Shown here: piece after piece, positions 51,224 through 51,535 of the stretch
Position numbering within the stretch: position 1 is the first letter of the stretch
How the letters are laid out: the number at the start of each line of letters is the position of its first letter
Origin: Polynucleobacter sp.
GTDB lineage: Bacteria > Pseudomonadota > Gammaproteobacteria > Burkholderiales > Burkholderiaceae_D
Assembly (NCBI GenBank): GCA_021737945.1
Contig: JAIPCX010000015.1
Location: 16,184 to 80,183 of the forward strand
Length of the DNA: 64,000 bases
Direction of reading: 5' to 3'
Translations under genes and position numbers: made by a program
Notes under the pieces: generated by a model
Told to the model about the DNA's origin: nothing
Seen by the model: the letters and a program-made list of their open reading frames with translations, nothing else
Databases searched by the model: none

Positions 51224-51252
51224 TTGACACTCCCCATCGAGTAAAATTTACT
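51224..51252 (+). promoter_or_regulatory. Sigma70-like promoter (TTGACA-N17-TTTACT)
   Basis: -35 at 51224-51229, -10-like hexamer at 51247-51252, overlapping the LexA-like box. Confidence 0.6.
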
Positions 51253-51268
51253 GTATATTTATACAGTA
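51249..51268 (+). promoter_or_regulatory. LexA/SOS-box-like operator TACTGTATATTTATACAGTA
   Basis: CTG-TATATTTATA-CAG with 9-bp perfect arms; matches consensus TACTG(TA)5CAGTA with one deviation. Confidence 0.88.
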
Positions 51269-51294
51269 CATAAACCTGACTAGGGAGCCACATC

Positions 51295-51489
51295 ATGCGT
51301 TATGACTTAGATAATCACTACGACATCAGCCCTGAAATAAACAACCCCCACCACTGGATACGCGGCACCGATGTCCAACACGTCTGGAGAAAACACGGCT
51401 GGGTACCACCGAGTGAATATCGGCGGGATTTCCAAATGAATTCAATCAAAGATCCCAGCGACAAAGCAGCAGCAAGGCAAACGAATTGA
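51295..51489 (+). CDS. Uncharacterised 64-aa protein, predicted SOS-regulated
   Basis: ATG preceded by AGGGAG with 7-nt spacing; MRYDLDNHYDISPEINNPHHWIRGTDVQHVWRKHGWVPPSEYRRDFQMNSIKDPSDKAAARQTN. Confidence 0.75.
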   Translation: MRYDLDNHYDISPEINNPHHWIRGTDVQHVWRKHGWVPPSEYRRDFQMNSIKDPSDKAAARQTN

Positions 51490-51504
51490 TTCATTTACTG
51501 ATTA

Positions 51505-51535
51505 TTGGTCAGTCGCTAATCAAGCGACTAACCAA
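51505..51535 (+). terminator. Strong stem-loop just after the 64-aa ORF (no U-tract)
   Basis: TTGGT-C-AGTCGCT-AATCA-AGCGACT-A-ACCAA. Confidence 0.5.

Follow-up and report, generated by a model that had tools for sequence, protein, structure and literature searches.

We identified a small gene in the window (i.e., the whole 64-kb stretch of DNA analysed here) that carries a LexA-type operator and encodes a relative of proteins made by environmental phages. In our best explanation, which we hold with a probability of roughly 60%, the gene is repressed by LexA, inducible by damage, and belongs to an undescribed phage protein family whose members run to roughly 35-70 residues; its product would serve as a docking peptide in recombination or replication. 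Under this reading, LexA would occupy a 20-bp operator at the promoter and block transcription; RecA filaments would then lead to LexA cleavage, yielding a short mRNA for a 64-aa protein alongside the products of recA, lexA and umuDC, and the protein would dock onto a DNA replication or recombination protein. Among the host copies putatively captured from phages, one slot would have been wired into the SOS regulon, with the others running without a LexA site.

A predicted LexA operator upstream of a 64-aa ORF

The features of the locus are as follows.

51224..51229, forward strand: TTGACA, a possible -35 hexamer present in the sequence
51249..51268, no strand assigned: predicted LexA operator (SOS box) TACTGTATATTTATACAGTA, from matrix score and conservation
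51282..51287, forward strand: Shine-Dalgarno sequence AGGGAG, 7 bases before the ATG
51295..51489, forward strand: 64-aa ORF of family type A (ATG at 51295, TGA at 51487-51489), from ortholog comparison
51370..51423, forward strand: conserved core DVQHVWRKHGWVPPSEYR, residues 26-43, from alignment and structure model
51505..51535, no strand assigned: stem-loop just 3' of the stop codon (-20.1 kcal/mol, z -5.3)

The first-pass annotation had described a near-perfect LexA box in front of this ORF, and the sequence indeed reads as a palindrome with perfect 9-bp arms and a 2-bp centre, separated from the ATG by 26 bp. CTGT-N8-ACAG is the consensus given for most Betaproteobacteria in the passage of PMC6595937 that cites Sanchez-Alberola 2015. 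The bare pattern is not rare by itself, with one occurrence observed in the window against 0.76 expected; the site was therefore scored with a 20-bp operator matrix built from the genus lexA sites together with recA and umuDC of the genome that holds the window (G000), leaving the window site out. It reached 22.5 bits, on a par with the recA (21.4) and umuDC (22.0) operators, and the second-best site anywhere in the 64 kb scored just 3.9 bits. Conservation with the orthologs, a check proposed in the first-pass annotation, was equally clear. Exact CTGT-N8-ACAG sites lie upstream of 22/22 SOS-type loci (family types A and B, see below) versus 0/31 other paralogs, at 25-60 bp from the ATG, and in the DNA alignment of type A the operator varies at a single central position and in its 3' flank, being otherwise invariant. 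We regard this conservation of the box in all 22 SOS-type loci as the decisive evidence; control of the window gene by LexA, predicted from operator strength and conservation, is very probable, and every sequence test made places the gene in the SOS regulon.

The ORF is real and its coding sequence is under purifying selection, since pairwise dN/dS within type A (five orthologs compared) is 0.04-0.28, the coding-type pattern that the first-pass annotation had proposed looking for in homologs. Within close type B, pairwise dN/dS is 0.08-0.24. The ORF was confirmed to be free-standing in the window, and the earlier proposal of a monocistronic SOS gene is supported by the presence of lexA, the conserved boxes and this selection. 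The protein has a pI of 7.0 and no membrane segment, and GGAGCC at the ribosome-binding site is kept in 6/6 A-type loci. The proposed TTGACA-N17-TTTACT promoter fared less well: both hexamers are present, but TTTACT fits a -10 element at only 4/6 positions, a promoter scanner does not call the pair, and TTGACA is not conserved among A-type orthologs. The hairpin after the stop codon is as strong as had been claimed, and is kept only in the closest orthologs. Its role as a terminator is unproven, because no T-run follows it, it is missing from 3/6 A-type loci, and it is not a genome repeat, an explanation that we considered and rejected.

Genome G000 contains 30 exact CTGT-N8-ACAG sites compared with 19 for the reversed control, and those that are real SOS sites by context include lexA, recA, umuDC, the window gene, a 63-aa ORF and a 128-aa ORF. 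The lexA gene, at G000:C45:69701, has two tandem boxes of its own, and lexA scored over the cut-off in 20/22 genus genomes searched. The 63-aa ORF (G000:C26:38984-39172, reverse strand, METEMIDQELPGKLEIKIVSRPSSQAQRIWRKRGRPRDL..., loci L130 and L138-L142) is a second small LexA-boxed ORF; it carries the upstream box in 5/5 genus genomes holding it and has WRKRG alone in common with the main family. The 128-aa ORF (G000:C43:18825; L131 2076-2459, forward strand) contains CxxC pairs and lies directly 3' of the SOS box TACTGTACATTTATACAGTT; Pfam gave no match above the cut-off for it.

A paralog family in one freshwater genus

Of the 146 genomes covered by the homolog search proposed in the first-pass annotation, the 24 of the window's genus all yielded relatives and the remaining 122 yielded none; profile searches agree. 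The genus is uncultured, Oxalobacteraceae-like and freshwater; its named records are MAGs that carry the labels Oxalobacteraceae, Burkholderiaceae, Burkholderiales or Noviherbaspirillum, and lakes and ponds are the source of many. Most genomes hold two to four family members at separate places. Types A (the window gene) and B share DVQxLWRKxGWxPPSEYRxDF, type C has the core ..GSDVQSLWKRHGWTPPSEKRR..RG and type D the core ..NVQDIWRKYGWVPPTESRKDFRATLRTT... The 31 box-free paralogs comprise C, D and two unclassed members, and most genus genomes retain the two box-free types.

Types A and B lie at different sites in the chromosome. They look functionally equivalent from their distribution, because they are mutually exclusive (never seen together) and one or the other is present in 21/24 genomes. 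Extra B-type copies cut at contig ends were noticed at G004:C210 and G017:C135 (L109, L110), so that some genomes may hold two SOS-type copies. Apparent family remnants in G001 and G021 proved spurious. The paralog family, its phage kinship and the A/B swap go beyond the first-pass annotation.

That annotation recognised no family for the protein, and neither did any of five resources. The window protein matched no family in Pfam or NCBIfam at E<=1, including the known small SOS families DinI, YebG and SulA; PHROGs and PDB searches of family members gave no significant match; and PADLOC gave none for the window protein and, over all 68 members, just two that were weak and isolated (E about 0.02).

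Conserved core and predicted structure

Across an alignment of 68 genus and viral proteins, V27, W31, G35, W36 and P39 are invariant. The family is defined by this V, W, G, W, P core in an ORF of about 35-85 aa, and the window protein has both. A structure model places a short helix at residues 27-33, a GWxPP turn, and a second short helix at 39-42, with pLDDT about 87 for residues 31-40 and low elsewhere (overall pLDDT 64.9, pTM 0.30). The model thus depicts, with low confidence overall, a largely disordered protein whose ordered part comprises one short helix and a W-x(4)-W/PP turn. Because the conserved aromatic core sits within variable tails, the protein most likely acts as a docking peptide, its putative target being a protein of DNA replication or recombination.

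Relatives in environmental phages

A scan with the genus alignment showed that at least 403 environmental viral contigs encode the core [DN]VQxxW[RK]KxGWxPP[ST]E. Among 80 first-scan contigs the viral ORFs have a median of 62 aa, and in the 71 distinct proteins from these contigs conservation extends beyond the search motif, with near-invariance at V (100%), Q (98%), G (97%), E (98%) and F (91%). Since the scan made no use of these residues, the viral proteins are true relatives, and on these alignments there is very little doubt that the window protein is akin to a phage family. A further scan recovered a second viral branch, F+Y.PA..TDVxxTW+RFGWxP, on 123 contigs. CTGT-N8-ACAG was found upstream of 0/80 first-scan viral genes, a result that counts against our best explanation.

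Named phages and plasmids were searched by tblastn of several members against INPHARED and PLSDB. Among 50,697 named phage records two family members were found, both in spring-water phage assemblies: Caudoviricetes sp. MW202796 (UOF82026.1) and MW202674 share the core (VDIRETFRKMGWVPPSE and TDVAETFKRFGFVPPSQ) in short ORFs, but these are hypothetical or unannotated, form a divergent branch and are not known to have an SOS box. In MW202674.1 the ORF (L264 1456-1560) is an unannotated one of 35 aa, MSLLDPKFKYIPAAKTDVAETFKRFGFVPPSQQKK. Matches in CcrColossus, VBv52 and a Pseudomonas phage were noise (E>1), and in KPP25, RHph_TM3_14A and ctNMl277, which have the nearest polA or helicase, the gene was absent in the regions read.

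The sole cellular finds outside the genus are phage or prophage DNA, and the weak cellular matches there consist of GlxA/AraC C-termini, one chance frame and one real prophage. We also observed a strong match within the same class, in a genome that belongs to a different taxonomic family; it lies on a phage-like contig of 1,063 bp (G848:C283, L276), which is probably misbinned. In a tree on 32 columns each of the types A, B, C and D came out as a single group, with the order of these groups among the viral sequences, and the direction and number of transfers, not fixed by it. Capture of the host copies from phages is probable.

The company kept by the phage genes provides a lead on function. 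Within 400 bp of 94 distinct viral cores we found DUF3310 (28), a VRR-NUC nuclease (19) and an ERF annealing protein (10); near other viral cores are polA, YqaJ, RusA, and Cas4/RecB-like and PD-(D/E)XK exonucleases. At least one of ten tested genes of DNA-metabolism or associated type lies near 71/94 cores; some of these genes were named through phmmer, from their similarity to locus proteins that had been identified with Pfam or by inspection. In several phages the family ORF runs straight into the ERF gene, and a prophage relative in another Burkholderiales family lies immediately ahead of RecB-like and RecT-like genes (identities by inspection). This early-block location is suggestive of a recombination or replication function.

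Proposed role and alternatives

From the phage neighbours and the SOS control together, we tentatively place the target among DNA recombination or replication proteins, at somewhat under even odds. The host copies are maintained where phage genes are absent, so the docking partner is probably host-encoded. Among the functions guessed at in the first-pass annotation, that of a polymerase or recombinase modulator agrees with the phage contexts, and a division inhibitor finds no support. More speculatively, and at well under even odds, the family could constitute a new and widespread class of peptide-sized accessory factor for DNA recombination or replication in undescribed aquatic phages, taken up repeatedly by one genus, with one slot rewired to SOS so that cells with damaged DNA would deploy a recombination helper of phage type.

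Early phage blocks, however, also carry anti-host and anti-defence genes. The strongest alternative is that the protein is a LexA-controlled host-takeover factor or inhibitor of growth or division, with which phages would redirect host RNA polymerase, division or a RecBCD-type nuclease, and which the host would reuse to pause growth or modulate end resection. Small mobile proteins of phage early regions often inhibit host enzymes: T7 gp5.9 and lambda Gam act on RecBCD, and SulA and SidA belong to SOS. A single small ORF under SOS in 21/24 genomes would suit such a role, but the protein has no membrane segment and belongs to no known inhibitor family, and the retention of two box-free paralog types in most genomes would be odd for a toxic inhibitor. 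We consider this alternative unlikely, though it deserves more weight than those that follow.

Much less probable is an SOS-regulated antiphage or superinfection factor, which would mimic the phage recombination peptide and so poison incoming replication. Phage infection can trigger SOS, and the conserved residues of the host copies are those at which they resemble the phage proteins. Against this, the window protein has no PADLOC match, no defence island was seen around any copy in G000, and selection on the gene is strongly purifying, not of the rapidly changing kind.

That the core is a stray AraC/GlxA-type helix-turn-helix fragment and the protein a small DNA-binding factor is very improbable: the family profile does pick up, at E 1e-4 to 6e-4, a GlxA-like C-terminal helix in two genera besides this one, but none of 25 genus and 6 viral members matches a Pfam helix-turn-helix family at E<=1, and the single helix and turn of the model are too short for such a fold. 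Equally improbable is a coincidental box with the ORF outside LexA control, for which the expectation of 0.76 bare patterns per 64-kb window speaks, but against which stand the 22/22 versus 0/31 conservation across divergent loci and an operator equal in strength to those of recA and umuDC.

A damage-inducible docking peptide of phage kinship thus remains our preferred explanation. Through it, an orphan ORF becomes a way into a common, unnamed phage protein family, with a lead on its function in that the host copy is predicted to be damage-switched and the phage copies have recombination genes as neighbours. If true, a bacterial SOS regulon would clearly have taken in and domesticated a recombination factor from phages, and assays of the host copy would need no cultured phage.

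Comparison with known systems

The regulon around the gene resembles the Betaproteobacteria LexA/SOS regulon in its canonical operator, in lexA autoregulated by two boxes and in the inclusion of recA and umuDC, and differs from it in that the window protein belongs to no known SOS family. DinI, YebG, SulA, SidA and DdrR are small SOS modulators and offer the same arrangement of a small single-gene product controlled by LexA (or an analogue); the window protein has no sequence match to them, belongs to a multi-member family shared with phages, and lacks a membrane segment. Lambda Gam, P22 Abc1/Abc2 and T7 gp5.9 are accessory proteins of phage recombination modules and, like the phage members described here, are small and encoded beside exonuclease and annealing genes. 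The resemblance is one of size and setting only: there is no family match, and the present family is also chromosomal and under LexA. Its phage members lie in DNA replication and recombination blocks, whereas the window gene stands free on the chromosome, outside any such block.
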